A stretch of DNA of 64,000 bases, from the NCBI GenBank assembly GCA_964035575.1, contig OZ037855.1:62001-126000 (forward strand). Reading direction: 5' to 3'. The notes beneath the pieces were generated by a model. The model had not been told where the DNA came from. It saw nothing but the letters and a program-made list of their open reading frames with translations, and did not search any database. Shown here in pieces: positions 12,844 through 61,182 of the stretch (within the stretch, counting starts at the first letter, position 1; every line of letters starts with the position of its first letter). The stretch is from Rhynchopus sp. YZ270_cl-10 (lineage: Eukaryota; Euglenozoa; Diplonemea; Diplonemida; Diplonemidae). The position numbers and the translations under genes were made by a program.

Positions 12844-14024
12844 AAGAAAAGAAAACACTTCATGTGAGGGCAAAAAAAAAAAAAAAAAATAAGGAGGAAA
12901 AAAAAACTAAGAGAGAAAAAAGTTTGGGTAAGTAAGAAACGAAAACCTGTCGCTAGGACATAGTCATTTTTGAGTACTGAAAGCAATCTCGAACGACTTA
13001 ATCTTCTACCAGGGGCCTACGGTATGTTTTTTTTTTTGTTTTTGTTTTTGTTTTTTTATATTCTGTTCGTGTATCCGCCATGTTCAAACAGTCGCTTGGA
13101 AACCCACCACGTTGAAAAAGAGACAGGTAGTAGGGAAGGGAAATAAGATGAAAATAAGACTCAGTGCTTAACCACACCCCTGAAAAGAAATAGAAACTCT
13201 GGGTGTGTGTGAGGGGGGAAACGAACCACAACAAAACAAGAGATGTCAGAGAATAAAGAAAACGTAAAAAAAAAATCAGCACATCAAAGGGACAGCATAA
13301 CATTATATCATGCTCTAATCGCAGTAGGGTGTTGGGAGAAAAAACGGGAAGGTGGGTTTTTTTTTGTCGCCCAAGGGTGTGGTTTTTGTAGGATCGATGA
13401 CAATAAAATCACCATTTGTTGGGTGTGTTACGGAACAACTATCAAGGACATGTCAAGGACATGTCAATATAGACCCCCTGCGGAACACCAAAAAATTACG
13501 CAATGGAGTCTTATTATAATGGTGCTGTAAAAAAGAACAGAAGAAAAAAAAAACAAGAGAAAAAAAAACGCTTTTTGTTTCTATCGGCGTTTTCAACAAA
13601 ATATACATTTTTGTTTTACCCTTTTGTAAAACATTTACGAGCAAGAACTTTTTGAAAACTGATTTTTAAAGGAAATTTCGCAAACCCATAAACGAAAGTA
13701 TCCCAAGGGGGTTGGGGGTGGGCACTAAAGAAAAGAACACAACGATGCAGGGATTGAAAATATTTTTGTTCTGTCGTTTTGACCAATACTGAGTCATACC
13801 ACCATGCTGCCATCATTACTTCTGTTTTTGAAGACGTTTGTCCCATTTGGTTGTGATGGGGGTTTCTTCTGTATAAAACAATAGAAACTGATGGGACAAC
13901 AGTAGTGCAGTCTTCACAATATGGCTCAGGTCTGGACTCAATGTTGGCTCTAGAAAGGTAATTTCCTCCCATTTTGTTGCACCGAAAGCTGTCCTGCGTT
14001 TCCGGTTTTCTAAAATACTGTGTG

Positions 14025-14489
14025 CATAGGTTTCGAACGCGCGTTCGAAAATCGAAAACGCGCAAATCCAAAATCGGAAAACGCGCACATGAAAAAAAAA
14101 AAAAAAACGCGCGTTCGAAAAGCTGGACGCGCGTAAAAAAAAAAGGGCGTTTTTTTTTTTTTTTTTTCAAACGCGCGTTCGAAAAAGTGGTTTTTTCGAA
14201 CGCGCGTTTGAAAAACTGGACGCGCGTTCGAAAAAACCACTTTTCGAACGCGCGTTCGAAAAACCTCCCCACGTAAACATGAGGCTTCCACTTTTTCGAA
14301 CGCCCGTTTTTTTTTTTTCCGTTTTTCAAACGCGCGTTTTTTTTCTCGTTTTTTCCGAACGCGCGTTTTTTTTCGTTTTTCAAACGCGCGTTTTTTTTTC
14401 GTTTTTTCCGAACGCGCGTTTTTTTTTTCGTTTTTCAAACGCGCACTCGAAAACGCCCTAAAAACGCGAACGCGCGTTCGAAACCTATG
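14025..14489. mobile_element. foldback element P1: palindromic GCGCG/TTCGAA termini, 6-bp TSD
   Basis: A 465-bp element. Its ends are perfect 23-bp inverted repeats starting CATAGGTTTCGAACG. It is flanked by TGTGTG on both sides (14019-14024 and 14490-14495). The whole interior is built from ACGCGCGTTCGAA-like units separated by A or T runs, with the units shifting orientation near the middle. There is no coding capacity; the long minus-strand open frame here just reads the repeats. Confidence 0.85.
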
Positions 14490-14699
14490 TGTGTGGTGAA
14501 AAAAAAAATCGGCATAAAAAATAGGGTTCGGGTGGGAACTACAATAACAAAAAATACAATCAAGGGGCTGTAAAAGAGAAGTGTTGTATGTCACCAAGGT
14601 TAACCCCGATTGGTTCATTTTGCACTGATAAGCATAATAGGCAGGTTCTGACTACTTAAATGTCGCCCCGAAGGGGCTAGAGAAACTACAGAGGGCGGC

Positions 14700-14735
14700 A
14701 CACCTCATCCCTGAAGTGCGGAAGAGATGAGGGGC
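14700..14735 (+). repeat. hairpin repeat R10
   Basis: ACACCTCATCCCTGAAGTGC, GGAAGAGATGAGG. CCTCATC/GATGAGG is a perfect 7-bp stem. Confidence 0.6.
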
Positions 14736-14888
14736 ATTCGGAACGCAACTCTGGTACCTTTCAGATGGTGTGCGTCTCTGCGAAGCTCTTATGTCGTGCA
14801 AAATAAAGGGGCTAACCAAGGGCTAGGGCGGGCGCACACATGACCTAGATATGTGCAGCAACACCCTGGACGAAAAGAAAAGTAAATA

Positions 14889-14921
14889 TTAAGATGAACG
14901 TGCCTCACAGTGCACAATACA
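14889..14921 (+). repeat. hairpin repeat R3 (short-stem variant)
   Basis: TTAAGATGAACGTGCCTCAC, AGTGCACAA. GTGC/GCAC stem. Confidence 0.6.
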
Positions 14922-15243
14922 TCAAAAAAATGGAAGTTAGTGCAAACAAACCAAAAAAGTGTTGAGATTTTGTGCGAACTGTAGCAGCAGGCACAATAAA
15001 AGAATGAAAAGTTGTGAGCTAAGCCTCACTTTTCGTTTGGTCACCTTCAAAAAGAATAGGGTGAAATAACATCAGCTCGGATCTCAGCCCCCATATCATT
15101 TGCCGCAGGAAAAAAATGGGTTGGGATATAGGCTCATAGCTACTTTACTTTCGCAGCCTAATGTGTCTTGTGGTGTCTGTTTGTACACCAGAAAAAAAAA
15201 ATGGGGTAAGTATAAATCAATACAAAGAACAAACAAAAGAAAA

Positions 15244-15291
15244 GTTGGAAGTGCAAACGCCTCACCGTGTATATGCACGACGCAGACGCCA
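15244..15291 (+). repeat. hairpin repeat R4
   Basis: GTTGGAAGTGCAAACGCCTC, ACCGTGTATATGCACGACGC. Confidence 0.7.
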
Positions 15292-16672
15292 TAAACTGTA
15301 ATCATGACACAAAAGAAAACTTTGAAAAAAATGTGGTGTGTTTCGCGTGTGAGGTGCGCACATCCACAGTGTGTTAATAAATGCACTACTTCTGATCTTA
15401 GTGTCGCCAGATGAAAATGCACAGGGGAGTTTGAAGGGGGTGGTTTTAAAAGAAAAACGTTTTTTTTTTTTTTTTGTTTGGCAAGATATACCTAAGCCTC
15501 TCTCGCTTAAGAAACAGAAAAGGCTATTGTCAGATTGACTCAGTGTCACTTCGTCACCTAAACACCTTTTAAAAACATAGTGCGGATAACGTGGCAAAGA
15601 TGAGTGCAAGAGAGGGCTTGTGGGCTCGCTATGCTATGACACCGTTGTCGATCCTTATCCATAAAAACAATAATGACACAAAAAGAAAAACACACATATG
15701 GGTGGAAGGTGGGGTGCGGGGGAATATTAAGTTTTTTTGCTAATAATTTTCCAACTTTTTCTTCACTTTTTTCAGCTATTTTTCTGGCCCTGCTGCCACT
15801 TTTGTTTTCTGTACGTTCAGCTCGTTTTCTGAGTGGTGCCTGGGTACTGGGCAGTTGTGTGCGGTGTGTACACACTGTACAGTGTGGTCTCCCTGCTTGC
15901 AGGGCTCAAGCGCGCCAGGCGGGCGCCTATCTGCTCGTCTGTTCTTGGTGACCATGTGATAAAAGTGTTTCACAGTTGGAAGATTATCAGCAAAACTATG
16001 TTTTCACCTCAAAAAGTCGGTAAAAAAATAGCGATTTTTATTTTTTGCAAACAAGGAAAAGAGAAAGGATTTACTCTAAAAGATAAAGCACTTTATTCAT
16101 ACAAGTAAAACGGACGTCACGGAAATGAAAAAAAAATGCTCGACCCACTGCCGTCGTTGCCGTGAAAAATAAAAAAAAACGGCCGTGAAAAAAAAGCGTA
16201 CAAAAATTTCACGGCCGTTAAAAAAAAACAACGGCCGTGAAATTTTTGTACAAGTCTTTGAAGGAAGACACAGTGAAATATGAGAAAAAGCGCCACTCAA
16301 GAACCATCCCACCTGATTTTTACCCCTGAAGAAAAGGAGGGTAGGGCAGGAGAGGACCGGTTAAGTGGTATCGCACAGAAAACTGCGCTGGGTACTGGGT
16401 ACTCTTGTAGGGTCTTGTTGCCTTTTGGCACATGTATTGTGTCCACGGTGTGTTGTGTTCACTGCTCTGAAGGTGCTGGCTCTCATCTACCTGATGGGGT
16501 AAGTGACACACGCATCTGACCCGCCATCTGTAATCTTCTGGTTTCAACACTGCCTTTCAGTTCAGCGTCCCGAGCGTCTCACAACCTCTTATTACTCTTT
16601 GCCCGAGAAGGATGTGTTTGGACTCACTCAAACCCCGTTCATCACTCTTGTGCCAAAGAAAGTGAAGTTATT

Positions 16673-16726
16673 AATGCAGGCACCTCCGACTGACCCACGT
16701 ACGATGCCAGCCATCCGGATGAAAGC
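16673..16726 (+). repeat. repeat R8, inside P2
   Basis: ATGCAGGCACCTCCGACTGA, CCCACGTACGATGCCAGCCA, TCCGGATGAAA. GGCA and TGCC bracket the unit. Shared with 49054 and, shortened, 47290. Confidence 0.7.
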
Positions 16727-18346: not shown

Positions 18347-19186
18347 TTTTTATGTTGCTTTTACCCCCCCAAGACTGACTTGGGAGGGATGGGAAAGGGG
18401 GTCTGGCCCTGTCTACGAACGAAAAAGAAGAAACAAGCAAAAAGCGTGGAAATATTTCACGGCCGTGATCAATGCAAAATTTCACGGCCGTTAAATTTTT
18501 CAGATTTTCTTCACGGCCGTGACCTCCCCGACAAAAAAAATTTATTCCCGTCGTGACGGCCGTTATACTTGTATGTTTATTTTGCTTTTAAAATTTATTT
18601 TTCGTTACTTTAGTCTAAAAGAAGAAAAATTCTTGGGTTGTGTATGTAGCAAGTTTTTGTTTGTTTTTTATCGACTTCCTCAGTGAGGTAAGCCAAGCGT
18701 CAAGTCAAGGCAGAAAAAAAAATGTGGAAAAAAAAAACCAATTTGTTTGACCAGAAAGCATACTATACTGTGGGGATGGGTGTAGGTTGTGGGTTTGGGT
18801 TTGGGAGAGAAAAGAAGGGAAATGCCTGGGGAAAAGAATGGATGGAACGTGCCCCTCTGCGCACATCTAAAATAAAAAATTTTCTTTGAAATACAAAAAA
18901 ACCCCTCTCATGACAGTGGCCTTTAGCCTTTAGGGTGCCTGACCACACCGTGGACCCAAAACCACTACTCGAGTTAGAGGTTTACATCTGAATTGTCCCT
19001 CTCGACTGCTTCCTATCATCAGTCAGATGAATGAACAGGAGCATTGGAGATGAGGTGTGTGAGGACGGTTTGATGTGGAGGTTGTGGGGTAAAAGAAAAA
19101 CGTTGGTAATATTAACAATAGAGCCTCAAGTGGAAAAACAGGGGTTTGTCACTCCAGTATTTGCCACATTTGTATTTTTTTTTTTT

Positions 19187-28879: not shown

Positions 28880-29926
28880 TCACATGCACTGTGCGTAGTA
28901 CGCGTTGTAGGCCACACACGTGGCACCTGCCTGCCCCTCGCAGCAGGCACGGTCCTGCTTGCACGCAGCGTACACACATTGCACATCAGTCGTGCACACG
29001 GGAAGGGTCGGTGGTGTTGTTGTCGTTGGTGTTGGTGTTGGTGCTGGGGCTTGCGTTGGTGCCGGCTGTGGTGTTGTGACAGGTGGTGTTGGCGGTGGTG
29101 TCGAAGGCGACGGTGCACCCTGCACACACTGTGCGTAGTGTGTCTTGTAGACAGCACAGGACGCACCTGCCTGCTCCTCGCAGCAGGCAGGGTCCTGCAC
29201 ACACGCAACGTACATGCAGTGCACAGCCTCCAACATCGTGCACGCGACAGGAGGTGTCGCAGGTGAGGTCGGCACAGGGACTGGTGCTGTTGGCACAGGC
29301 ACAGGCGGGCTGCCACCACCACCACCAGAGAACATGACGTCAATCACGTTGAAGAAGCTGTTCGACGTGTCGCCCACATCCCACACACTCAGAATGATGT
29401 GGTACCCCTCCAGCGTCGGCACGTTGCATGTGTGGTCCGTCGTCATCGGCGGCATCTTCATGCCTCCGTCCACAACACAGAACGGTGCGTCCTCAAACGT
29501 TGCGCGTGTCAGCGGTGCATTCGGGTTCCACCCTGCCCGCGTCATGTAGTACGTGTAGTCCTTCGTCACGTGGTTTGCGTTGAACGTCCACGTGAACTTC
29601 GTGGCCCCACCCGACATCGGCACCTTCCCCCAGCGTGTCGCCGTCTGCTCGTTCAGCTCCGGGAAGCGCGAGTGTGCACCTCCTGCCGGGATCGTCCCGT
29701 CTGCCGGCCACCCGTCCGGACCCTCGATGCTGAAGGGCTCCCACATGATCTGCCCGCAGTTCGTGTTCTTTTCTGAAGCGGGGGTGTGGATGTTCGAACA
29801 GAGCTCCGCACGCGACGGTGGGTCCAACACGTGCCCGTGTCCGTACGCCTGCGACGCACACAGCAGCACGCAGAGGGTGCGCGACATTGCCATTTTGTGT
29901 TGTTTGTTTGTAATGTGCTTTAAAAT
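27944..29926. repeat. segmental duplication, unit 1 (partner 38832-40820)
   Basis: The unit contains LPMO copy A, its leader and about 935 bases of 3' flank. The partner is colinear at a constant offset of 10,888 across the 3' flank and first part of the gene; the only length change I see is 6 nt in the Pro/Val linker. Confidence 0.9.
28880..29893 (-). CDS. secreted AA10-type LPMO with two Cys-rich modules (copy A)
   Basis: This 337-residue secreted copper enzyme should cleave cellulose or chitin oxidatively. A signal peptide (1-18, MAMSRTLCVLLC core) is followed by mature HGHVLDPPSR; H19 would be the N-terminal half of the copper histidine brace and H108 (NANHVTKDYTYYMT) the other. Further AA10 landmarks are PFC at 137-139, HTCNVP at 154-159, GYHIILSVWDVGDT at 163-176 and SFFNVIDV at 179-186. 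After a Gly/Pro/Val/Thr linker (190-217) come two seven-cysteine modules (218-256 and about 298-336), spaced C-x5/7-C-x4-C-x5-CC-x7-C-x9-C and ending YAQC; these are probably substrate-binding. AA10 enzymes are mostly bacterial, so ancient lateral transfer is likely. The start is fixed by the signal peptide and a 33-nt leader identical in all three LPMO-bearing genes. Substrate cannot be told from sequence. Confidence 0.93.
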   Translation of the reverse strand: MAMSRTLCVLLCASQAYGHGHVLDPPSRAELCSNIHTPASEKNTNCGQIMWEPFSIEGPDGWPADGTIPAGGAHSRFPELNEQTATRWGKVPMSGGATKFTWTFNANHVTKDYTYYMTRAGWNPNAPLTRATFEDAPFCVVDGGMKMPPMTTDHTCNVPTLEGYHIILSVWDVGDTSNSFFNVIDVMFSGGGGGSPPVPVPTAPVPVPTSPATPPVACTMLEAVHCMYVACVQDPACCEEQAGASCAVYKTHYAQCVQGAPSPSTPPPTPPVTTPQPAPTQAPAPTPTPTTTTPPTLPVCTTDVQCVYAACKQDRACCEGQAGATCVAYNAYYAQCM

Positions 29927-29955
29927 CTGTGTGGAGTGGTGGGGGAGGTGAGTGG
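29927..29955 (-). promoter_or_regulatory. putative trans-splice acceptor, LPMO copy A
   Basis: On the minus strand CTCACCTCCCCCACCACTCC leads to ACACAG, with AG at 29928-29927. The predicted mature leader begins ATTTTAAAGCACATTAC and is 33 nt long, the same as in the other two LPMO-bearing genes. Confidence 0.6.
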
Positions 29956-30482
29956 CTTTTGGTGGGGGAAGTGAATATTGAAAAGATAGGTGTTCATTTG
30001 TCTTTTTGTTGGGGGGTCTTTGTTTTTACATTTGTATCGATAGGCATGCTTCTGACGCGTCGCCACACGCCAAGCGCGGCAAAAAAGAGTGGCAGACAAA
30101 GCTCTTCCCTCCCTGTGGGGTGACAGGGTGGACTGAGGTGCTGCGGTGGGTGGTTTGATTTGCTCAGCGCGAGACGGCCCGACAAGAAGCACTCCTAGGG
30201 GTTTGTTTCCTCATCGCCAGGGGGCAGGGGACTCCCAATATGTTTTCTTTTCTTTTATTTTGTTTTATTTTTTCCTTTGTTTTGTGTTATCTCCTTATCT
30301 AACTGTGACCTCTTCGGCCACGTCCATCCGTGTGTCGTGCTTTTGTTCTTCTTCTTCTTCTTCTTCTCGTCATGTCAGCACGGACGGTGCCTTTCTTTGC
30401 GGCGCTTTGGGTGACTTTTTTTTTTGTTGGAACAGCAAAATAGCAAATTCGAAGAAGCGTGGCAGAGACACAGACCTCACGA
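29956..30482. other. spacer between LPMO copy A and alpha-tubulin
   Basis: This is probably the alpha-tubulin 3' untranslated region plus intergenic DNA. On the plus strand it shows T-rich tracts (30240-30300), a CTT run (30348-30367) and poly(T) at 30417-30427. No gene or recognised repeat is seen. Confidence 0.6.
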
Positions 30483-31859
<1,377 letters not shown>

Positions 31860-31869
31860 TTATAGCGGA

Positions 31870-31898
31870 CTGTTAGTGGTGTGTTGGGGTGTGCATTG
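31870..31898 (-). promoter_or_regulatory. putative trans-splice acceptor, alpha-tubulin
   Basis: On the minus strand a C/A-rich tract (CACCCCAACACACCACTAAC) precedes AG at 31871-31870. A second AG lies nearer the ATG (AAACAG, about 31842). The first has the better tract. The leader between them is CA-rich like those of the other island genes. Confidence 0.4.
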
Positions 31899-33021
31899 TT
31901 GGGGGAATGGTACCGACAAGAGTTCTTTTATTTCATTTCTTTCTGTCTTTGCCATTGTTTATCACGGGTCACGTTTCTTCAGAGACACATCCTTTATGAC
32001 TACATCCTAAAAGACTGCTCAGCACGCAAACACACCCACACATGGTCTATAAGCACAACACCAGTAAAATCCAAGGAAGAACACTGCAAGTATCGCGTTC
32101 TGCACCAAGAGAACCTTGGGGCATGCGCGACATCCAGTACGCCTTGCGACATTGTTGTTGTTGTTGTTTTTTTTTTTTTTTTTTTTTGTCTACATTTTTT
32201 GTGGTTTCTCTCTTTGCAACTGTATTGTCTACACACACAGCTTCTCCTCTTGAAGGGGCATTGAAGCCACTGCAAAAGGTCAAAGCTGGGTTGGCAATAC
32301 CAAAACAAATACTCCACAAAAAGACGAGAACAAAACGGGAAAAAAATAAAGTAAGTTGGAATAGAAAAAGAGACCCTGCGCCCGATGGGAGGTTCGTGGA
32401 ACACAAAAGAAAGACCACTTCTGAGGTAACAGAAAGCAGGTTGGGGGGCAAAGGCGCAGAGGTTGGGGTGGGAAAGGGAACGAAAGGAAGAGAAAAGCTG
32501 GTAAGATGAACCTAAGCCTCGTCTGCTGAAGTCACCTTGACCGACCGAAATACGGCACATATGACGCACCTTGTGTCGTGTGCTCAGTAAAGAATACCTT
32601 CGACGGAAATAAAACACTACGTGTAGAAGCAGACTTGTTTCAGGAAAAGAGTGCAGCTTCGTTAGGCTCACGTTTGTGCTGAACCGAAAAAAACTGTATT
32701 TTGGGGGGGAGAATAAAAAGGGCCGAATAGAGTTCGGATCATAGAATAGAGAGCAAACATAGGTGCAGGCAGACAAAGCATGCCTGGGTAGACAAGAGAA
32801 ATTTTAGACAAAAAAAAAAAAGAGAGGAAGAAGAAACAGAACAAAGCGACGGAAGGCGGGATATGAAGGAAGAGAGGAGTCACCACAACACGAAAAGGTG
32901 TTGTCTCGTGTCCCCACACACCTACACACATGTGTGCCCTCACCGGTTGTCGCTTGTTCGCCCTTGTTTGTATGTAAGTAAGAGAGAGGAGTGAACCCTC
33001 CTTCATGTGATAAATAGACGC
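31899..33021. other. spacer between alpha-tubulin and LPMO-GH5 gene
   Basis: No gene is supported. It holds a poly(T) tract (about 32167-32187), one plus-strand AAGATGAACC hairpin repeat (32501-32537) and A-rich stretches. The longest open frame (minus strand, 258 codons) is low in complexity, has no domain, and runs through the poly(T) tract as poly-Lys. Confidence 0.6.
32501..32537 (+). repeat. hairpin repeat R3 inside the gene island
   Basis: GTAAGATGAACCTAAGCCTC, GTCTGCTGAAGTCACCTT. The head is intact but the 3' arm is diverged. It lies antisense to the flanking genes. Confidence 0.7.
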
Positions 33022-35295
33022 TCACCCAAGCACCTTGCACGACCAGCCGCCTCCAGGTGTGCACGTTCTGAGGCACTGTGCGTACCACTGCGACTGCTCG
33101 TAGCACTGTGTGCCGCTCTCACAGCACGCTGTGGCCCCCAGACAGTTCGAATACATAGACAGCGTCGACCCGCTGCACGCACTCGACGGCACAGGCACAG
33201 GTGCTGTGGGCACAGGTGCAGGCGGTGTGGGTGGGGATGTTGCCGGTGGCGGTGACGAGCTCTGCATGCACTCTGCGTACCACGTGTCGAACTGTGCACA
33301 CGGCGTCCCTGCTGCAGCACAGCAGCTGGCATCACGCTTGCACGCACTGTACACACAGAAGGCAGAGGCACAGGCAGGCGGGGTCGGCACAGGGGCTGGC
33401 ACCGTGGGCACAGGCACAGGCACAGGCTGTGTGGGTGGGGACGTTGCTGGTGGTGTTGGCGGTGTGGGCACGGGCACAGGGGGAACGGGAACGGGAGCAG
33501 GTCCGCCACAGGGAACAGCATTCGTTCTGATGTACGTGCGCACATAGCTCCCCGTGCACGACACACTGTCCCAGTCGCCAGAGGCACACGCCCCAGACTG
33601 CAGTGCCGCCGACACCTCTGCCTTGTCCGCCAGACTCCACGACGTCCAGCTCAGCTTCACACCCTGCGACCCTGCGCTCTTGAAGCCCTCCAGGAACGCC
33701 TGCGCGTTGTCGAGGAAGGGACCCCCGTCACCGCTCGCCTCAGACGTGCCCCACTCACTCACAAACAGCGGGATCTGCGACGCAACCTCCTGCACACGCG
33801 ACTGCAGGTGTGTGTGCGACCCGGCGTAGAAGTGGAACACGTACATGACATTGTGCGGGAGGTCCACAGGGCGCGCCGCTGCCTCGTGGATGTCTTGGCT
33901 CCACGTCGGCGTCCCCGCAAGCACCACTGTCTCCGCATCCTCCGCACGGATCAGCGCCAGGATGCGGTTGTGGTAGCTCACAACCTCGCCCCAGCTCACA
34001 CCGTTGGGCTCGTTTGCAATCTCGTACAGCACGTGGCTCTCGTCCTTCAGCGTCCGTGCCATGTCCTGCCAGAACGCGTCTGCCCCGTCGTACTCAGCGT
34101 CATTCGGGTTCCCAGGGGACAGCATGTGCCAGTCCACAATCACGTAGATCCCGAGCTCCTTGCACCACTGCACAATGTCCAGCACGGTCTGCTTCAGCGC
34201 CGGGTTGTTCCCGTAGCCCCCTTCCCCGATGTACATTGCTGCCCGGAACACGTTGATGCCCCACCGCGTCACCAGGTGTGTGATGCTTTCCTTCGTGTAG
34301 CAGTTCGCAAACCAGTGCAGCCCGTGGCTGCTCATCCCCATCAGCTGCACAGCCTCCCCCTGTGCCCCCACAAGCTGCAGCCCCGACAGACGCAGCTTCC
34401 CGTGGCACGTTGCGAACCCGGTGTTGTCCACTGCAGCCACGTTTGCGTCCAGCCCGCTTGGAAGCGCGCATGTCGACCCGCTGCCTCCACCACCGCCACC
34501 ACCACCTCCACCACCGCCACCCTGCCACGCACACTGGCCGGTGTGCTGGCAGCAGCACTTGCAGTAGCACTCGCTCCCGTCGTCTGTGTTGCACTTTGCA
34601 CCGTTGGCAGTCCAGTCGCAGCCGCATCCACTTGTGTCGCTTGGGCAGGCCCCGTTGCTTGGAACCGGCACAGGTGCAGGCACAGGAGCTGTTGGCACAG
34701 GCACAGGCGGGCTGCCACCACCACCACCAGAGAACATGACGTCAATCACGTTGAAGAAGCTGTTCGACGTGTCGCCCACATCCCACACACTCAGAATGAT
34801 GTGGTACCCCTCCAGCGTCGGCACGTTGCACGTGTGGTCCGTCGTCATCGGCGGCATCTTCATGCCTCCGTCCACAACACAGAACGGTGCGTCCTCAAAC
34901 GTTGCGCGTGTCAGCGGTGCATTCGGGTTCCACCCTGCCCGCGTCATGTAGTACGTGTAGTCCTTCGTCACGTGGTTTGCGTTGAACGTCCACGTGAACT
35001 TCGTGGCCCCACCCGACATCGGCACCTTCCCCCAGCGTGTCGCCGTCTGCTCGTTCAGCTCCGGGAAGCGCGAGTGTGCACCTCCTGCCGGAATCGTCCC
35101 GTCTGCCGGCCACCCGTCCGGACCCTCGATGCTGAAGGGCTCCCACATGATCTGCCCGCAGTTCGTGTTCTTCTCTGAAGCGGGGGTGTGGATGTTCGAA
35201 CAGAGCTCCGCACGCGACGGTGGGTCCAACACGTGCCCGTGTCCGTACGCCTGCGACGCACACAGCAGCACGCAGAGGGTGCGCGCCATTGCCAT
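33022..35295 (-). CDS. secreted LPMO (AA10)-GH5 endoglucanase fusion with Cys-rich modules
   Basis: This 757-residue multidomain cellulase starts MAMARTLC. The frame is open further upstream, but this ATG matches the other LPMO genes and follows the same 33-nt leader. Order: signal peptide 1-18; AA10 LPMO 19-189 (H19, H108), nearly identical to the stand-alone copies; Pro/Val linker; a 12-Cys segment (217-255); a run of 13 Gly; then a GH5 barrel (about 276-600) resembling bacterial GH5_2 endoglucanases (VQLMGMSSHGLHW, DWHMLSPG). The expected acid/base is E429 (YEIANEPNG) and the nucleophile E514 (VSEWGTS); SWTSWSLADK is also family-typical. Long Pro/Val/Thr linkers join two C-terminal Cys modules. 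The first matches the LPMO modules; the last (ACCESGTQC...QWYAQC) resembles fungal CBM1. It should nick crystalline cellulose oxidatively and hydrolyse the released chains. Confidence 0.93.
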   Translation of the reverse strand: MAMARTLCVLLCASQAYGHGHVLDPPSRAELCSNIHTPASEKNTNCGQIMWEPFSIEGPDGWPADGTIPAGGAHSRFPELNEQTATRWGKVPMSGGATKFTWTFNANHVTKDYTYYMTRAGWNPNAPLTRATFEDAPFCVVDGGMKMPPMTTDHTCNVPTLEGYHIILSVWDVGDTSNSFFNVIDVMFSGGGGGSPPVPVPTAPVPAPVPVPSNGACPSDTSGCGCDWTANGAKCNTDDGSECYCKCCCQHTGQCAWQGGGGGGGGGGGGGSGSTCALPSGLDANVAAVDNTGFATCHGKLRLSGLQLVGAQGEAVQLMGMSSHGLHWFANCYTKESITHLVTRWGINVFRAAMYIGEGGYGNNPALKQTVLDIVQWCKELGIYVIVDWHMLSPGNPNDAEYDGADAFWQDMARTLKDESHVLYEIANEPNGVSWGEVVSYHNRILALIRAEDAETVVLAGTPTWSQDIHEAAARPVDLPHNVMYVFHFYAGSHTHLQSRVQEVASQIPLFVSEWGTSEASGDGGPFLDNAQAFLEGFKSAGSQGVKLSWTSWSLADKAEVSAALQSGACASGDWDSVSCTGSYVRTYIRTNAVPCGGPAPVPVPPVPVPTPPTPPATSPPTQPVPVPVPTVPAPVPTPPACASAFCVYSACKRDASCCAAAGTPCAQFDTWYAECMQSSSPPPATSPPTPPAPVPTAPVPVPSSACSGSTLSMYSNCLGATACCESGTQCYEQSQWYAQCLRTCTPGGGWSCKVLG

Positions 35296-35328
35296 TTTGT
35301 GTTGTTTGTTTGTAATGTGCTTTAAAAT
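34676..35328. repeat. LPMO module shared with copies A and C
   Basis: The leader, signal peptide, AA10 domain and first linker residues of the fusion gene match 29281-29926 and the copy C equivalent almost base for base. Similarity ends in the Pro/Val linker. The GH5 part has no partner in the window. Confidence 0.85.
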
Positions 35329-35350
35329 CTGTGTGGAGTGGTGGGTGAGG
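35329..35350 (-). promoter_or_regulatory. putative trans-splice acceptor, LPMO-GH5 gene
   Basis: AG at 35330-35329 is preceded on the minus strand by CACCCACCACTCCACAC. The 33-nt leader is identical to those at 29894-29926 and 40788-40820. Confidence 0.6.
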
Positions 35351-35842
35351 TGCCTACATGGGACGTTCCCTGTCAGTGCTAGATGAGGGACATGAAGCGA
35401 ACTGTGGTTAAAGGTGCAGGACTGTGTGGCAACAGGTCTGGATTGAGGCAACTCGTCGCTGAGCGTGTGAAGAAGGCAGGGGTTTGCTGTTACTGTAAAA
35501 CCTACCCCTGGTCATCCTCGACCTGTCTTGTTCTCTGTTGTGATTGTTTGTGATTGTGGGCGATCAGGTGGATGGAGGGTATTGCTTTTTGTTTAACTTG
35601 GAGAAGCTGGCGGTTAGTGTTATTTTTTCATTCATTCATCTCCAAAGTATGTAGACAGAGTCAAGGCCACCTTAGGCAAAAGGGTTTTGTCACCACTGTA
35701 TGTTTGGTGATTCCTCCCACCATAGAAGAAAGAGAAAATAGTGGTACCAGAACCAGAACGCACGGATCGCGTGGAGTTTGGTCTTTCAAAACTCTGATGT
35801 TTGTTGTCTTACTGTTGGCACCTTTCATTTGTGGAAATGGGT
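35351..35842. other. spacer upstream of LPMO-GH5 gene
   Basis: No gene is supported. The last 37 bases or so (from about 35806) match the sequence downstream of the second WD40 gene and belong to the WD40 tandem duplication. The rest appears single-copy within this window. Confidence 0.6.
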
Positions 35843-36960: not shown

Positions 36961-36986
36961 GGACAGCTGTGTGGGGAGCAGGTAGG
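36955..36986 (-). promoter_or_regulatory. putative trans-splice acceptor, WD40 copy 1
   Basis: On the minus strand CTGCTCCCCACACAGCTGTC leads to CCCACAG, with AG at 36956-36955. A second AG lies about 12 nt upstream. The equivalent AG in copy 2 is conserved. Confidence 0.5.
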
Positions 36987-38575: not shown

Positions 38576-38598
38576 GTGTGGGGAGGGCAGGTAGGAGA
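38562..38598 (-). promoter_or_regulatory. putative trans-splice acceptor, WD40 copy 2
   Basis: On the minus strand a pyrimidine-rich tract (CTCTCCTACCTGCCCTCC, then CCACACACCTGTCCCCAC) ends in AG at 38563-38562, the site conserved with copy 1. Two more AGs lie closer to the ATG. Confidence 0.5.
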
Positions 38599-39767
38599 GG
38601 GGCGGGGTGGTGTTTGTGAAGGAAACGAGATGTGTTGTCATTTGCAAAAACAAGAGAGATAGCTCCTCGGCCAGCTGGAGCTCCTCCCACCTTCCCACAA
38701 GGATGCCTGTGAGTTACGCAGAAACGAGTACTAGGCTGCTGCAGAAGCTGACCGAGCTAGCCGACAGCACACATGCGACGCTGACGTACACCACAAGTGC
38801 ACGTGGAAGAAAAAGACTCACGAGAACCACCTCTACATGTACGCAGGCTGAGGGGAACTAAGTAAAGATAAAAGGGTGCGAGGAGGGCGAGGAGGGTCTG
38901 TGGTTGGGTATTATCCATATAAAACTGTACTGTGCAGAACACAGTGTACTCTGTGCACAAAAGCACAAGACGCCGGAAAAAAGGGAAAAGGAAAAGGGAA
39001 AGTGGGATTGATAAGAGTAACGAAAGGGCACCACAACCGTTGGCTTGCCTCCACGATGACCCTGCACCTTGGTGTCCTCTCCCCTGCCTGTCTATAAGAC
39101 CTTCTCTTCGCACACTCAAGTGGACAGCCACCTTATGCACAGAAGAACGGTGAGGCAGAGGGACACAGACCGCAAAGGCGGGGCAAGGCAGAACAACGCA
39201 AACCACTGTGCACACAGCTGCACCTCAGCTGCCGTGTCGTTAGTAGAGTAGAACGAGAGCAAAGAAAAGAAAAGAAAATAGAAAACAGAAAATAGAGGGA
39301 AAGCGCAACAAGAGAGGAAGAGAACCCTTTTTGCCCACCTGCCGAGCACACACCGGCAGCCACAGCGGCGGGCAGGTCTTGGTTGTATATTGTGTCGCTA
39401 TTGCACTGCACACAGCTGCTCTCCTCGCAAGAGGCGTAACAGCCTCCACGAGGCTTCCAAAGCTGCTGCAGGACAATATCAGAATAATGTGCAAAAATAA
39501 ATTGCAAAAGTGAGGACGAAAACAAAAAGGTAGATGTAAAATAAAAGGTCGCGCACCCCACCGCACCAGTCCACCCGTATCCACACAGCCGTCTCCACAG
39601 TTAAGAGAGTGGCGGTGGCATCGTCAAAGAAAGAAGGCTGCAGGGCAATGGAATGTGGTGTATGTCAGAAGCAGGAGGCATTCTGCACCTAGTAGCGTGG
39701 ACAGAAGAGGCAGTCATAGATGCTGCTTAGAAGGGAGAGTGGAGAGTGGGGAGGTGCCTGCCGCTGC
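38599..39767. other. spacer between WD40 copy 2 and LPMO copy C
   Basis: Positions 38832-39767 are a near-perfect copy of 27944-28879. 38776-38831 is a weaker match to the bases upstream of 27944, so the duplication tails off rather than ending sharply. No gene is supported. Confidence 0.7.
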
Positions 39768-40820
39768 TCACATGCACTGTGCGTAGTACGCGTTGTAGGC
39801 CACACACGTGGCACCTGCCTGCCCCTCGCAGCAGGCACGGTCCTGCTTGCACGCAGCGTACACACATTGCACATCAGTCGTGCACACGGGAAGGGTCGGT
39901 GGTGTTGTTGTCGTTGGTGTTGGTGTTGGTGCTGGGGCTTGCGTTGGTGCCGGCTGTGGTGTTGTGACAGGTGGTGTTGGCGGTGGTGTCGAAGGCGACG
40001 GTGCACCCTGCACACACTGTGCGTAGTGTGTCTTGTAGACAGCACAGGACGCACCTGCCTGCTCCTCGCAGCAGGCAGGGTCCTGCACACACGCAACGTA
40101 CATGCAGTGCACAGCCTCCAACATCGTGCACGCGACAGGAGGTGTCGCAGGTGAGGTCGGCACAGGGACTGGTGCTGTTGGCACAGGCACAGGCACAGGC
40201 ACAGGCGGGCTCGCACCACCAGAGAACATGACGTCAATCACGTTGAAGAAGCTGTTCGACGTGTCGCCCACATCCCACACACTCAGAATGATGTGGTACC
40301 CCTCCAGCGTCGGCACGTTGCATGTGTGGTCCGTCGTCATCGGCGGCATCTTCATGCCTCCGTCCACAACACAGAACGGTGCGTCCTCAAACGTTGCGCG
40401 TGTCAGCGGTGCATTCAGGTTCCACCCTGCCCGCGTCATGTAGTACGTGTAGTCCTTCGTCACGTGGTTTGCGTTGAACGTCCACGTGAACTTCGTGGCC
40501 CCACCCGACATCGGCACCTTCCCCCAGCGTGTCGCCGTCTGCTCGTTCAGCTCCGGGAAGCGCGAGTGTGCACCTCCTGCCGGAATCGTCCCGTCTGCCG
40601 GCCACCCGTCCGGACCCTCGATGCTGAAGGGCTCCCACATGATCTGCCCGCAGTTCGTGTTCTTCTCTGAAGCGGGGGTGTGGATGTTCGAACAGAGCTC
40701 CGCACGCGACGGTGGGTCCAACACGTGCCCGTGTCCGTACGCCTGCGACGCACACAGCAGCACGCAGAGGGTGCGCGCCATTGCCATTTTGTGTTGTTTG
40801 TTTGTAATGTGCTTTAAAAT
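38832..40820. repeat. segmental duplication, unit 2 (partner 27944-29926)
   Basis: The unit contains LPMO copy C. The noncoding part looks as conserved as the coding part, which implies a very recent duplication or gene conversion. The upstream edge coincides with the splice acceptor. Confidence 0.9.
39768..40787 (-). CDS. secreted AA10-type LPMO with two Cys-rich modules (copy C)
   Basis: This 339-residue near-duplicate of copy A has the same signal peptide, histidine brace (H19, H108), linker and two seven-cysteine modules. Visible protein differences are A for S at position 4, WNLNAP for WNPNAP in the catalytic domain, and the linker, where GGGGGSPPVPVP is replaced by GGASPPVPVPVPVP (net two residues longer, a repeat-slippage change). 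The frame stays open upstream of this ATG, through a poly-Lys stretch encoded by a poly(T) tract on the plus strand. I start at 40787 because the signal peptide, the 33-nt leader and the acceptor match the other two genes. It is the first gene of the island in transcription order, if transcription starts on its far side. Confidence 0.93.
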   Translation of the reverse strand: MAMARTLCVLLCASQAYGHGHVLDPPSRAELCSNIHTPASEKNTNCGQIMWEPFSIEGPDGWPADGTIPAGGAHSRFPELNEQTATRWGKVPMSGGATKFTWTFNANHVTKDYTYYMTRAGWNLNAPLTRATFEDAPFCVVDGGMKMPPMTTDHTCNVPTLEGYHIILSVWDVGDTSNSFFNVIDVMFSGGASPPVPVPVPVPTAPVPVPTSPATPPVACTMLEAVHCMYVACVQDPACCEEQAGASCAVYKTHYAQCVQGAPSPSTPPPTPPVTTPQPAPTQAPAPTPTPTTTTPPTLPVCTTDVQCVYAACKQDRACCEGQAGATCVAYNAYYAQCM

Positions 40821-40862
40821 CTGTATTGGGTGTGAAGAGAGAGAAGGGAAGGGAGGAGAAAA
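40821..40862 (-). promoter_or_regulatory. putative trans-splice acceptor, LPMO copy C
   Basis: This is the best acceptor in the window. On the minus strand CTCCTCCCTTCCCTTCTCTC is followed by TTCACACCCAATACAG, with AG at 40822-40821. Homology to the other LPMO loci stops within about 2 nt of this AG, so this tract is unrelated to theirs yet serves an identical leader. Confidence 0.65.
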
Positions 40863-41034
40863 GATAGGAATAAAAGAGTTCGTTTTTTCTTCTGTAGTTG
40901 CTTTTTTTTTTTTTTTTTTTTTGCGTGTTCTTTTTTGTTTTTGGGGTGAGGAGGGGGTAACCTTTTTAGTTGTCGTCTTTTTTAAAATCAGGTTTTTATT
41001 TTGTCTGTGCCTCACGGTTCGTTCTCTTTTTTTT

Positions 41035-41095
41035 TGATAAATTGTTGGAGTAGTGTAGTTGCCTCGGTTGTGTTGCTACAGTTGTGCAATCTCCA
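41035..41095 (+). repeat. hairpin repeat R2
   Basis: After poly(T): TTGATAAATTGTTGGAGTAG, TGTAGTTGCCTCGGTTGTGT, TGCTACAGTTGTGCAATCTC. About 60 bp, nearly identical to 61183. Confidence 0.8.
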
Positions 41096-42475: not shown

Positions 42476-44573
42476 CAGTGTTTCCCAGCATCTCACCTAA
42501 CTCTGAAAATAGGTGAGATTTTGCGGTTTTGCGGGTTTTTGTATAGGTGTGGCGAGCCCGGGCGCGCTTCGCGCGCCCGGGTCCCCACCTTAGCTCAAGT
42601 TGGGGGCCTCCGGCGGAATGTGAGAATTTCTCGGAGTTCGGCACTTCATTGATATTTGCACCAGTACATTTACAAAATAAACGGCAGTCATGGCAGGCAT
42701 GACACCCAAGCGAAGCCACGGTACGCATCATTTCTAAAAATTGTTGACATAAATGTCACTGTCGTTGGAAGATTGGAGGGTCAACTTGTTTTTGTGCCCA
42801 AAATTTCTCAGCACTGCTGACCAGGGACATTGGGAACATAGGGATTTTTGCGGAGCAAAAAAAAAATCAAACAAATGGCGCCGCAGGCGAAAAAAAATTA
42901 GGGTACAGTGTAAAAATCTATCTTTTTTACAGCACATAGTCACACACCTATTATGGTCCTAACCCTTTTTTGCGGAGCAAAAAAGGGAAAATGGCGCCGC
43001 AGGCAAAAAAAAATTGAGGTACAGCCTGGATGGTGCGGTCAGCAACCCAGTTCCCCATGGTACTCACGTGGTTCAACCATGATTTTTTTTTTTTTTTTTT
43101 CCTGCAGGTGAGATTTCTCACCAGACCTGACGCTAAACAGTTACGAAAATCGCACTTTTTGGGCTTGGAATTCGGGTTTTTTTACGGGTTTTTTTACACG
43201 GGAAAAAGGTACATTTTTCGACCCTGGCCCATGTCTGGTGGTGAAAATCATAATTTTTTTGCCCACATGATACGTTTCGAACACACTTATCGCTAAATAT
43301 GCCGTTTTCCCCGAAAATTTTGAGAACCCCACGTCCAATTTCTTTCGTTTTTGGTGCTCCGGGAGGGGTCGATATTGACAGGTCGCTGACAGGTCGCTGA
43401 CACAGGGACTCTATACACACACCCCCTGATATTGACAGGTCGTTGACCGACTTCCGAAAGCACCAGTTTTGGAGAAAAAAAAATTCGCGCTGCGCGCGAA
43501 AAAGGTCCTCAGAAGCTCAATTCCGAAAGCAAATACGGGGAGCGAAGTCTTCCAACTCCTCCGCCATCAGCAGGAACACCTCCGTTTTCTCTTGAACCTG
43601 TTACGCTTGTGCTGAGAAACAAGGCAACAGCGTGTTCAAGAATATTCCCCATCTTTCCGTTGTTAAACTCGGTGCCTGTTCATGAAGAACCATCAGCTTC
43701 TCAATAGTGCTGTGAGAAAGGCGGTGGCGTCTCTTTGCGTAGATGTAGTCAGGAGAGAGAATCCTTGTTCAACAGCAACCAAAGACGGGGAGTGCACTAC
43801 CGGTGCAGCCTACAAAACCCGTGCGAGAGTGTCCCCATTTTCCAAGAAAACTTCGAAAAAACCGCGTTCTGGCGAAGCCACGGTACGCCACATTTCAAAA
43901 TTGCGCTTAAAATTGCACTTTTTTCGCAGCCAAACTATGTCATAAGAAGGGTGTAATGCAAGCTTGCGCCGCAGGCGCACGGTACGCTACTTTTTTCTTT
44001 GGCCATATCCTTCTTTCTCACTCCTTATTGGGTTCGACGTGCTCCGTCCGTCAAATGGTGGGGTCACAACATGCAGCAAAGTTTGCAACTACGCAAACTG
44101 CCCCCACGTTCACTTTGTACTTTTCCTTCAGAAGACAAGTACCATCGGGAACATACGGAACTGAATTTTTTTTTGCGAAGCAAAAAAAAATAATATAAAA
44201 TGGCGCCGCAGGCGAAAAAAATTAGGGTACGGTGTAAAAATATAGCTATTTACACCACAGAGCAGTCACTCAACGAACCCTTTTTGCGGAGCAAAAAATG
44301 AAAAATGGCGCCGCAGGCAAAAAAAAAAATTGAAGGTACAGCCTCCCGGGTCAACCCTACAGAATTTTCCCGTAAAAAAAAAAAGACTCCTCAAAATTTC
44401 CCGGAAAAAAAAAGGATTTCCCGCGTAAAATTTCCCGTAAAAAAAACGACCTCTCAAGGATTTTGGAATTCCACTACGCGGTTTAGCAACATCCCTGTTT
44501 CTCACCTCACTTTTTTTTTTTTTTTTTTTTTTGTGAGATTTCTCACCCCAAAATCTCACCGTGGGAAACACTG
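42476..44573. mobile_element. hAT-like DNA transposon, 8-bp TSD
   Basis: A 2,098-bp element with ends CAGTGTTTCCCA and inverted partner, followed by GGTGAGATTTT near both ends. A perfect 8-bp duplication GCTATTTT flanks it (42468-42475, 44574-44581). Those ends and an 8-bp TSD are classic for hAT. The interior has a GC hairpin (42555-42592), a duplicated block (about 42800-43020 and 44095-44340) with TTTGCGGAGCAAAAA and ATGGCGCCGCAGGC, and a GACAGGTCGCTG tandem (43377-43400). No transposase is recognised in any frame; non-autonomous or decayed. Confidence 0.88.
43966..43985 (+). repeat. 20-bp motif shared between element families
   Basis: GCGCCGCAGGCGCACGGTAC. Its reverse complement occurs at 60438-60457 in P4, and 19 of 20 bases at 63114-63132. 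Confidence 0.75.
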
Positions 44574-53140: not shown

Positions 53141-53988
53141 CAGGGCACTAGCTAGGTGCTTTTTTGCGGTTTCAAAACCGCAAAAACCCGGTTTTGCGGT
53201 TTGGCGAAAAAAAAAAAAAAAAAAAAAACGGAAAATCTTGGGGCAGAAAAAAAAAATATGTGGGGGGTTTTGGGCACTGTTGGGCCCCCTCGCCCGACCC
53301 CCAGATGACTGGCATGATAGCACCTTAATTTTCTTCTGCTCGCTGCGCTCACGGAAGTACACCCTAAAAAAATTTCCGCTCGCTTCGCTCGCGGAGTTAA
53401 CCCATATTTTTTTTGCCTGCGGCGCCATTTTCCTTTTTTGCTTCGAAAAGGGTTTGTTGAGTGTAAAACCGGCATCTTTACACCGTACCCTAATTTTTTT
53501 TGCCTGCGGCGCCATTTATTATTTTACAATGTCTTCGGGAAGACCCTTGCAATTTGGGCAGTTGCATTTTGCAACCGAAAATGCAATATCGATTCGGGTA
53601 GAGGGGTGGTCCGCGATCGGGGAGATTAAGTCAGAGCATAGTGAGCCGGCGTGCCACCGCGGACATGGAGGAGTGTGTGATAGAATGGTCGACAGCAAAC
53701 AGGAGACTGGGGGGAGTATGTGCGAACGTCGGAAGCTGTGCAGACCATGCGGCAACACATGCTCACGCACAGAAGCATTCTGATACATGCAATGAAGTTG
53801 GCAGGAGATTCCACCAGGGGTCAGTCGGGTTTAGCCCCGTAAAAAATGCCCCGTAAGTAACCCCTTCCCAAAATCTCCCCGTCCCTCATTCGTGTGTTTT
53901 CCCTTCTAGTTTGTCGCCGCGCGAATTTTTTTTTTGAAACCGCAAAACCGCAAAAAAACGGGAAAAAAAAAGTCTAGCTAGTGCCCTG
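53141..53988. mobile_element. hAT-like non-autonomous element, 8-bp TSD
   Basis: An 848-bp element with ends CAGGGCACTAGCTAG, perfectly inverted over 15 bp, and an 8-bp duplication ATGCAGGG (53133-53140, 53989-53996). GCGGTTTTGCGGTTT palindromic units lie next to both ends. It carries, inverted, the GCCTGCGGCGCCATTT / TTTTTTGC module of 42476-44573, twice (about 53418-53450 and 53503-53520), so the two elements are related despite different termini. Confidence 0.88.
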
Positions 53989-57700: not shown

Positions 57701-57806
57701 ATAGTGAAAACTTTAAAGGGTAATTCTTTCATCTCCTTTTTTGTTCTACTGAATAGAAAGAAGATGAAATAATGAAAGTTTGAAAAAAAAAAAATGGGGG
57801 ATGGGA

Positions 57807-58266: not shown

Positions 58267-58280
58267 ATGGGATAAGGATA

Positions 58281-58324
58281 TTTATTGTTGTTGACAATCA
58301 ACTTTACACCGAAATCGGGTAAAG
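58281..58324 (+). repeat. repeat R11
   Basis: TTTATTGTTGTTGACAATCA, ACTTTACACCGAAATCGGGT. Confidence 0.55.
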
Positions 58325-58531
58325 ATTTTTTTTTGTACTCAAAATGCCGGCCAGAAGCCTGATAATCTGTTTGATGAAAAAAAGTGTAGTTTTGTCATCC
58401 CTTGCGCTCCGAGAGAAAGAGGGCAGCTGGTTCTACGATTTTTCTTGCCTCTCTAAGGAGAAATAACACAAAAGTCAGTCAAAAAATGAAGTATTTTTGC
58501 AAAAAAAAAAAAAAAAAAAAAAAAAACTGCG

Positions 58532-58671
58532 GGAAAAAATAGTAACTCTGATAGGTAAGTAAAAGGAAAAAAGGTTTTTTCGTTGATTGCACAATTACCC
58601 TGTTTGAGGGGTGATTGGCGACCGTATCTGAGGAACTATTTCTCCTTTAAGCTACGCTTGTAGGAATAAAA
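58532..58671 (+). repeat. structured repeat R7, copy 2
   Basis: As copy 1, but the C/G stem is shorter on both sides (CAATTACCC / GGGTGATTG), and the 3' hairpin is CTACGCTTGTAG. Confidence 0.75.
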
Positions 58672-59029
58672 AAAAATACCAAGTCGGAGTTCAGTTCAGG
58701 TTAGGGAGAGAGACAGAGAAAGAGACCAGCAGAGAGGAGACAGGAATTAAAGAAAAGACGTTTTTTCGTCTTTTGGAACAACAAAAAAAAGAGGGGGTAC
58801 CATTGCCGGTATCTTTTCACTGTACTTCTCTCTCTCTCTCGCCCTCTGAAGGTTGTTGTATTTTGTGTGATTTTTTATCAGAATGTATCAGAAAAATGGT
58901 GCACTTTGCGTAAGCCTTTTTTCTGGCACAAACCTGCAAGCATTGCGGAAATCACTAAGGTAGGGTTGTTGGGGGTATAGATGCTTCAAAATACAATCAA
59001 AACAATCGCCAACCAAATACCCCACCATT

Positions 59030-61154
59030 CATGGCTGTGTAACTTAAGCTAAAAAAAAAACTTAAGTTTTCTCCGAAATCCTCCGGAAAATTTAAGCGAC
59101 TTAAGCTACTGAAAAAAAAAACTTAAATTAAAAAACTTAAGTTTTCGAGAAAAAAACTTAAGTTTTTTTAGAAAAAAAACGTAACTTAAGTTTTTTTAAA
59201 AAAAAAACAGCTTAAGTTACCAACTTAAGTCACTTAAGTTAGCTTAAGTTACAGTTTTTTTTGTTTTTTTTTTTTTTTTTGTTTTTGCTTGGACGATGAA
59301 CTTCACTGAAGGGGCCGGATACCCGTAGTTTCCTGATGCAGCATCCCTACTGAAAATTCCAAATGAGGGTGACCACCCAATCAAATCGGACTTATCACTG
59401 CACCCGCGTGCGGTCAAGTGCACACGTGTGGGGCGATTATTCGGAGTAGACATGACAGTGAAATATCGATGGTAAAATGGCTGGTACATGCCAGTCATTT
59501 TCCACTTTCCGAAACGTAAATATTTTGCAACGAAATATTATGATTGGCGTGGCTGCATAACCGATTACCCGTGTTTCTACCAGTTGTCACCCTCATAGGG
59601 GATACACGTGTTGGGGGAAAAATTTTTCGTCGGTGAAGCTTTTAAACGGCGGCATTTGCATTTCCGGAATCCGTCCGGCCAGTGGTGGGGTCAATTTGCC
59701 GAAACGTACAAGTTCTCGTTTTTGGTCAATTTCCGCACAGTACACAGGTACACAGGTACACAGGTACACAGGTACACAGGTACACAGGTACACAGGTACA
59801 CAGGTACACAGGTACACAGGTACACAGGTACACAGGTACATAATCTGTGGTGGTCAAAAGTGCAAAATTCTTTCGTCAATGCATTTTTTGAGGACCTGTT
59901 ATACCTAGAGAATATGGTCAGATCACTCTTCGGACCACCTGAAGCTTCACACCCAAGCCAAGCAAAAGGGGAAAAAAAAAAAAAAAAAAAACGATGACTT
60001 AAGGCAGGCTATTTCCTAAATCTGAGTTTCGATTTTAGGATTTGAGATTTTGGAAATGCCGCACTTTTTTTACCGACCAAATTTTCCCGGTTGCCGCACT
60101 TTTTTTTCGCCTAAGGGGGAAGGTAGGTAGGGCACTTCTGTCTGGGAAAAAGTGACCAGGGAAAAAAATGTTGGGGTCCCGTACTCCCAAATGTGCGAAA
60201 TAAGCAAGAATAAAGTATTTTTGCGCACATGTGTTAAAAAAAAATCCGCCTCCGGCGGGGTTCGTTTTCGAGGGTTTTCAGAGATCACGATATGAGGATT
60301 CCTTAAGAAACCATTGAATCTTATTTCAGAATAATAGTACCTTAGAGTGTTTTTGGACACATATGACCCCGCCGTGGAGAGCAATCGGCTCGTGCAATCA
60401 AAAGAAAGTGGAGAAAAGGTACAAAAAAAAAAGTTGGGTACCGTGCGCCTGCGGCGCTTCTTGTTCCCTACCAGTTTCTACAGGCAAACACTTGCCCCCT
60501 TTACCTTACACTGACGGATTTTGACCAAAACCAAGAACTTGTCCATTTCGGCAAATTGACCCCACCACACAACGCACGGATTCCGGAAATGCAAATGCCG
60601 GTGTTTTCGGGCATTTTCATGTTTCAAGACGTCAGGATCAGGGAGAGAAAATTTGGTTGTGGGATTTACCTTGGCCCTCTTTACCCTACATGGATTTTGA
60701 CCAAAACCAAGAATTTGTCCATTTCGGCAAAGTGACCCCACCACAGCGCGGGCGGATTCCGGAAATTCCAATCGCGGTATGTTTTGGAGCTGAAACCCCA
60801 CTGTTTTTTTCAGGGGGAAAATTGCTTCCGAATGTCGGAATTTTCCGAATTTTCCTGAAAATGACCCTTGTTTACGAGTATGGGTTCATATTTTGCGAAA
60901 ATTTAAGTCACTAAATTTTTGTCCATTTTTCCGAATATGCCCCACCACAAGCCGGGATTGGCTCGGAAATGCAACAAAACGCCCTCTTGGGCGGAAAAAA
61001 ACCTCACAAAAATGCCGCACTTTTTTTGCATTTCTTTTTCGAAATTTTGGAAAAAACGCCCCAGAGTTAGGAAATAGCCTGGACTTAAGGTAACTTAAGC
61101 GACTTAAGTTTTTTTTTTAAAAAAAACTTAAGTCACTTAAGTTACACAGCCATG
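59030..61154. mobile_element. foldback element P4: CTTAAG termini, 6-bp TSD
   Basis: A 2,125-bp element. The ends are CATGGCTGTGTAACTTAAG, perfectly inverted over 19 bp. ACCATT flanks both sides (59024-59029, 61155-61160). Subterminal arrays of AACTTAAGTT lie at 59045-59255 and 61080-61145. Inside are an 8-bp minisatellite, several copies of an ~85-bp unit, and sequence shared with 62955-63650. No transposase recognised. Confidence 0.88.
59741..59840. repeat. 8-bp minisatellite (GTACACAG)n inside P4
   Basis: About 12 perfect copies. Confidence 0.97.
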
Positions 61155-61182
61155 ACCATTCATTCCCTTTTTTTTTTTTTTT

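Follow-up and report, generated by a model that had tools for sequence, protein, structure and literature searches.

Seven families of small DNA elements with common tip letters and 6-bp target site duplications in the diplonemid Rhynchopus sp. YZ270_cl-10

At least seven families of small DNA elements with common tip letters and a 6-bp target site duplication (TSD) are present in the genome of the diplonemid Rhynchopus sp. YZ270_cl-10. Four of these families, P1 to P4, are represented in the 64,000-nucleotide stretch analyzed here (the window, positions 62001–126000 of contig OZ037855.1), and three more, P5 to P7, were discovered nested within P copies by a scan of loci extracted from the same assembly (152.4 Mb in 126 contigs, the single assembly searched). 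An earlier note on the window had described P1 to P4 as elements with CAT..ATG ends, terminal inverted repeats, and 6-bp TSDs; on re-measurement all of these features, and the coordinates, were exact (Table 1), random pairs of 6-mers from the window agreeing with a frequency of 0.001. The features by which miniature inverted-repeat transposable elements (MITEs) and other non-autonomous DNA transposons are recognized, namely terminal inverted repeats, a fixed TSD length, a dispersed multicopy state (P1–P6), and the lack of a recognized transposase gene of their own, were all found. Tentatively, and with less than even confidence, the elements are read as non-autonomous, MITE-like DNA transposons for which the transposase is supplied in trans, a hAT lineage with 6-bp TSDs (hAT6-like) being its most likely source.

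Copies, tips, and target site duplications

Element ends were searched for genome-wide with at most one mismatch allowed, and the same pattern read backwards served as the control. End matches numbered 162 for P1 (1 in the control), 168 for P2 (5), 126 for P3 (0), and 82 for P4 (0). P5 (CATACATTGAAATCCC), nested in a P3 copy, gave 127 end matches, with many displayed pairs of about 1.06 kb; P6 (CACGGATGCTGCCAGATCTG), nested in a P4 copy, gave 411, and among its 42 displayed pairs that span at least about 1 kb, 28 measured 2.65–3.20 kb. The displayed copies of P1, P2, P3, P5, and P6, from close to 100 places each, are a part of the whole. P7 (CACGGCGTACGAAAGCGC), nested in a P1 copy, is known from one scored copy, and the multicopy, dispersed state is established for P1 to P6. 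Local alignments between distinct copies of P1 to P5 gave within-family identities with medians of 92.1–96.3%. Because P6 and P7 open with CAC, the common tip is CAY..RTG, the third base being Y (T or C) in all seven families; CAT..ATG as a shared end thus holds for P1 to P4 and is too narrow for the class. Past CAY, the tips match at 3–9 of 17 positions in 20 of the 21 family pairs (with even base use, 4.25 would be expected), and those of P1 and P7 are identical at 11 of 17.

TSD length was scored in 49 distinct copies from the seven families, each with its left and right ends within one locus. This set was not random, as loci L015–L034 and L073–L075 were selected for length and the remainder came from the head of the copy listings; left ends lacking a right end in the same locus (two of P1, one of P2, one of P3, and four of P6) were left out. 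With the nearest right end used, the TSD was 6 bp in 42 of the 49 copies and 7 bp in three, and four copies had none. This count replaced one made with a pairing rule that preferred a right end with at least 5 bp (6 bp in 43, 7 bp in 3, and none in 3), since such a rule favours matches; only one candidate right end was present in 48 of the 49 copies. Among the four copies without a TSD, two agree at 5 of 6 positions, one is apparently shifted by 3, and the copy in L032 has a second right end giving 6 bp. When the flanks were slid as a control, agreement was seen in 2 of 490 comparisons. Four further P6 copies, with left ends outside the 49-copy set, have TSDs of 6, 5, 6, and 6 bp. The 6-bp length is present in every family, resting on five copies for P6 and one for P7. 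A general scan of the extracted loci, in which only TSDs of at least 5 bp were retained and P copies were included, found 6 bp at 35 of 40 elements with CAT ends and 8 bp at 10 of 15 with CAG ends. The 6-bp target sites (46 sites) are varied in sequence and lean toward A+T, and some are homopolymers, e.g. TTTTTT and AAAAAA.

Empty sites were sought by comparing 41 joined flanks with the sequence at hand, low-complexity matches being filtered in a second pass. Apparent empty sites were found for P3 (99.2% over 119 bp), P5 (100% over 99 bp), P2 (94.2% over 121 bp), P6 within P4 (99.0% over 97 bp), and P4 within a repeat (91.7% over 120 bp). Those for P1 (88.0% over 100 bp, at a poly-T target) and for P7 within P1 (96.7% over 61 bp, with a change in poly-T length) are weaker. 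The 6-mer is single in these matches, as far as poly-T permits for P1 and P7. The matches are paralogous repeats and not alleles, and the majority of the 41 joined flanks had no empty-site match among the matches listed. Empty sites had been chosen beforehand as the refuting test of the element boundaries; at these paralogous sites of one assembly, the boundaries agree with those of the earlier note. A simple-sequence or foldback artefact without any transposition, to which the commonness of A-runs and palindromes in this DNA and the homopolymeric TSDs might point, deserves almost no credence, being contradicted by the apparent empty sites in which the 6-mer is single and by dispersed copies that are 92–96% alike at the median.

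Table 1. Elements P1 to P4, their flanking repeats, and the element nested in P4 (window positions)
Feature	Position	Description
P1 TSD TGTGTG, left copy	14019..14024	Flanking repeat
P1	14025..14489	465 bp; 23-bp perfect inverted repeat CATAGGTTTCGAACGCGCGTTCG; palindrome array ACGCGCGT
P1 TSD TGTGTG, right copy	14490..14495	Flanking repeat
P2 TSD TTTATT, left copy	16092..16097	Flanking repeat
P2	16098..18575	2478 bp; 24-bp inverted repeat, 2 mismatches (22/24); palindrome ACGGCCGT close to each end
P2 TSD TTTATT, right copy	18576..18581	Flanking repeat
P3 TSD ATGGGA, left copy	57801..57806	Flanking repeat
P3	57807..58266	460 bp; 31-bp inverted repeat, 1 mismatch (30/31); odd palindromes TCGGnCCGA (17) and CCGAnTCGG (8)
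P3 TSD ATGGGA, right copy	58267..58272	Flanking repeat
P4 TSD ACCATT, left copy	59024..59029	Flanking repeat
P4	59030..61154	2125 bp; 19-bp perfect inverted repeat; palindrome ACTTAAGT close to each end; composite (nested element)
P4 TSD ACCATT, right copy	61155..61160	Flanking repeat
hAT-like element nested in P4	60005..61081	CAGGCTATTTCCTAA ends; 9-bp flanking repeat GACTTAAGG; hAT-like from its ends alone

Palindromes in the end regions

Palindromes were counted in the two end regions of each element (250 bp each, or half the element), and the counts were compared with the maximum of 300 shuffles. For 8-bp palindromes this maximum was exceeded in P1 (12), P2 (9), P4 (12), and P6 (26). All five 8-bp palindromes of P7 are AAGCGCTT, a number within the shuffle range. 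P3 has three, which is no excess, and its two odd palindromes occur 17 and 8 times, the expected number of odd palindromes being 1.7. The evidence for an array in P5 is weak, as its four 8-bp palindromes are not in excess and its odd ones number six against 1.7 expected. The family-specific palindromes are real; of the earlier claim that the palindrome differs in every element, what stands is a family-specific palindrome in most families, P5 showing no excess of 8-bp palindromes.

Arrays of this kind also occur in other elements. A hAT element with a 671-aa protein and an 8-bp TSD (L065) has 12 palindromes, the shuffles giving at most 10, and AAACGTTT accounts for 10 of them. A 5.8–6.2-kb element with mostly 2-bp TSDs, scored in its L016 copy, has 13 against a maximum of 6 (GTCATGAC and GTAATTAC six times each), so the palindrome layout is not diagnostic of the 6-bp class. 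Five other hAT-type elements, namely those with 954-, 891-, and 741-aa proteins and two from the window, have 2–3 palindromes, without excess. The proposal of a family defined by architecture thus survives as a class with a 6-bp TSD, near-constant tips, and family-specific internal repeats in seven families, the palindrome layout itself not being a defining trait.

These observations bear on whether the families form one class at all. It seems quite unlikely that several unrelated superfamilies each gave rise to a 6-bp TSD and CA..TG tips: the low likeness of the tips past CAY in 20 of 21 pairs and the palindrome arrays of 8-bp and 2-bp elements would suit such an origin, but it has to contend with the 6-bp length in all seven families, the third base Y in seven of seven, and the 11 of 17 positions common to the P1 and P7 tips. 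P1 and P7 have these similar tips and yet differ in their palindromes (ACGCGCGT and AAGCGCTT, respectively), as would be expected if the binding sites of related transposases drift. A transposase lineage as yet undescribed, whether within hAT or beyond it, might make 6-bp TSDs at CAY..RTG ends and co-evolve with its binding sites. Each sub-lineage would then have its own palindrome array, the palindromes being replaced over time as the tip and the stagger remain constant, and P1 and P7 would form an intermediate pair; we regard this as possible but doubtful.

Coding frames, hAT elements, and other features

No recognized transposase gene of their own was found in the P copies read, the frames belonging to nested elements or having no match, and so a full-length member encoding a transposase, the search for which the earlier note had proposed, was not found among these copies. 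The 20 long P copies yielded reverse transcriptases, which are interpreted as nested retroelements (RVT_1 in L017 at E 1.2e-11 and in L028 at E 1.8e-21, with sub-cutoff matches at 0.018 in L015 and 0.028 in L029). The longest frame within P2, on the minus strand, has 314 aa and, as found in the copy in L022, is without a Pfam match. The P6 copy in L033 has no non-repetitive frame above 153 aa, and three long P5 copies have none above 184 aa. Genome searches with PF21787 (P/THAP9-type RNase H) and PF18758 (KDZ) each gave 0 matches, the control for each likewise giving 0 anywhere. By eye only, the six-frame translation of the P2 interior may be retroelement-like.

A pair of frames of 424 and 530 aa in L016 was considered as a transposase source and rejected because its host element is nested and has a different TSD, mostly 2 bp. 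This element, with CACCATGGACTCG ends, was seen at L016:429-6231, L042, L043, L044, and L073:2300-2977; the TSD is 2 bp in four of the five copies, and the L016 copy shows four A's. Neither frame had a Pfam match with an E value as high as 1 allowed, and the 530-aa frame has five distant homologues at E up to 0.01.

Among the hAT elements of this genome, the 671-, 741-, 954-, 891-, and 712-aa families were rejected as sources, the TSD being 8 bp in the one copy read of each; the 891-aa copy has an alternative reading of 6 bp, one base further out. The 671-aa element (L065:534-3168) has a CAGTGTTCCTAA tip and the 8-bp TSD CTACCCCC. The 588-aa element lies within poly-C and gives an ambiguous 10-bp match, and the ends of the 600-aa element were not found within the stretches read. 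Eight copies of the 1066-aa family showed TSDs of 5 bp (four copies), 6 bp (one), and 1 bp (one), with none in one copy and the left end not found in another, so TSD length varies among the hAT elements of this genome. Besides the 600-aa family, hAT families with protein sizes of 1100, 1008, 838, 387, 351, 521/140, and 275/249 aa are present.

In the right flanks of the 1066-aa family (L067, L076/L077, and L083–L094), an A-run starts within about 10 bases in all eight copies. C-rich target motifs adjoin the elements of the 671-aa (L065:534-3168), 741-aa (L062:873-3329), 712-aa (L103/L104), and 588-aa (L105/L106) families; read from one copy per family, the motifs are CTACCCCC, CCCCCCTA, CTACCCCC, and ACCCCCCCCC, respectively. 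Three of these four families have DUF659 matches, and the C-rich motifs possibly reflect a target preference. The window itself holds two hAT-like elements, at 42476–44573 (CAGTGTTTCCCAGC ends and the 8-bp TSD GCTATTTT) and at 53141–53988 (CAGGGCACTAGCTAG ends and the 8-bp TSD ATGCAGGG). In L068, a 907-aa hAT gene is followed by a CAGTGTTTCCCAGC tip, by eye.

Outside these elements, L027:547-2754 has an inverted repeat GGGGAATAGTCAG and a 9-bp flanking repeat AAATCTTTT in a layout that resembles a Mutator-like element. Two tandem arrays adjoin at window positions 10123–10805, one of TACACAGTA (30.8 copies) and one of AGTAC (79.4 copies). The long frames of the window were read as alpha-tubulin-like, lytic polysaccharide monooxygenase (LPMO)-like, and WD40-like genes. 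LPMO-like genes, repeated by eye, are interleaved with other genes at 28880–41075; for the one that was searched, the homologues have PF03067, the top named ones being bacterial GbpA proteins and the closest ones unnamed.

Possible source of the transposase

Published systems were compared through parts of the cited papers. A hAT6 group with 6-bp TSDs has been described (Kapitonov and Jurka 2007, as cited in PMC12730594), as have hAT5 and hAT7 groups (PMC12730594); the TSD of hAT elements is usually 8 bp (PMC12730594, PMC3942097). In general, hAT elements have short inverted repeats and give rise to non-autonomous derivatives (PMC3942097). A hAT6-like lineage is the best-supported known source for the P families because such a lineage combines short inverted repeats with a 6-bp TSD and hAT TSD length is variable in this genome. 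The likeness to hAT6 lies in the TSD (6 bp in 42 of the 49 copies); the P families differ in having CAY tips and no recognized transposase. Under the hAT6-like reading, a transposase supplied in trans would make cuts staggered by 6 bp in the target and join the element ends to it, and would recognize the CAY tip together with an array of family-specific palindromes through paired DNA-binding domains; from one transposase lineage to the next the palindrome sequence would change, the tip and the stagger staying fixed. Binding of palindromes by paired domains is suggested by the precedent of Hermes, the BED domains of which cooperatively bind a quasi-palindromic pair of subterminal repeats (PMC10368747). 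Short motifs are likewise packed near both ends of Hermes and of other hAT elements that carry subterminal repeats, and some palindromic pairs are bound by BED domains; the difference is that in Hermes, in the text covered, no more than two of the repeat pairs are palindromic (PMC10368747) and that the hAT TSD is usually 8 bp.

The hAT-type tip motif is CARNG. The P families, with T or C as the third base in seven of seven, do not fit it, and the hAT tips read in this genome are CAG or CAA, with TAA in the 712-aa family and CAY in none. Moreover, the 6-bp targets lean toward A+T, whereas those of the 671-, 741-, 712-, and 588-aa hAT families are C-rich. No transposase gene was found in any CAY/6-bp element among the copies read, and the hAT-domain matches in the genome (141 of PF05699, with 150 of 201 candidates scored, 110 of PF04937, and 46 of PF14291) fell inside P copies in 0 of 297 cases, as judged against 146 displayed P1–P6 intervals of about 1.1 kb or more, positions being transcribed by hand. 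All of these points weigh against a hAT6-like source.

Several of the same points would speak for a transposase lineage outside all described superfamilies, making 6-bp TSDs at CAY..RTG ends and having lineage-specific palindromic operators: the tips are CAY as opposed to CAG, CAA, and TAA in hAT here, the displayed copies contain no hAT-domain match, and none of the known families compared fits all features. We nevertheless consider such a lineage unlikely, since failure to find an enzyme is weak evidence and hAT6 already accounts for 6-bp TSDs.

Descent from an element with an rve integrase is improbable. IS3EU and GingerRoot have 6-bp TSDs and terminal inverted repeats, as the P families do, but complete IS3EU families end in TA..TA, as GingerRoot mostly does (PMC10045372), in contrast to CAY..RTG. 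Polintons (Mavericks) also make a 6-bp TSD, but they are large coding elements with inverted repeats of several hundred bp (PMC12747079), compared with 19–31 bp in the window.

Dada, which the earlier note had named as a parallel, is a poor match. Its TSD of 6–7 bp agrees with the P families, in which 7 bp was seen in 3 of 49 copies, but Dada targets multicopy small RNA genes, the Dada elements with clear termini sitting in such genes, and Dada-U6 and Dada-U1 are without terminal inverted repeats. The 46 target sites of the P families vary, and tRNA scans of the window and 42 loci and Rfam scans of the window and 20 loci were negative (many of the loci being short flanks only). That the P families are Dada elements is therefore very improbable.

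Two MITE families of Mycosphaerella graminicola resemble the P families in their 5–6-bp TSDs; the difference is that the stem "palindrom" is absent from the main text of that report (PMC4522978). The comparison literature, likewise covered in part, further includes PMC3706591, PMC12220804, and PMC3627910. In the open PMC literature, as judged mostly from search listings, no report was found of elements that pair a 6-bp TSD with palindrome arrays particular to each family.

The usual basis for sorting transposon families is the transposase or the tip sequence. The seven families of this genome have TSD length and tip letters in common and differ in their internal repeat arrays, offering a natural series for asking how recognition of DNA by a transposase changes without loss of activity and how related transposons avoid mobilizing one another. 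Few plain DNA transposon groups with 6-bp TSDs are recorded in the literature covered (hAT6, Dada, IS3EU, and GingerRoot), and the identity of the enzyme would tell whether a known 6-bp group reaches this host or a new group exists.

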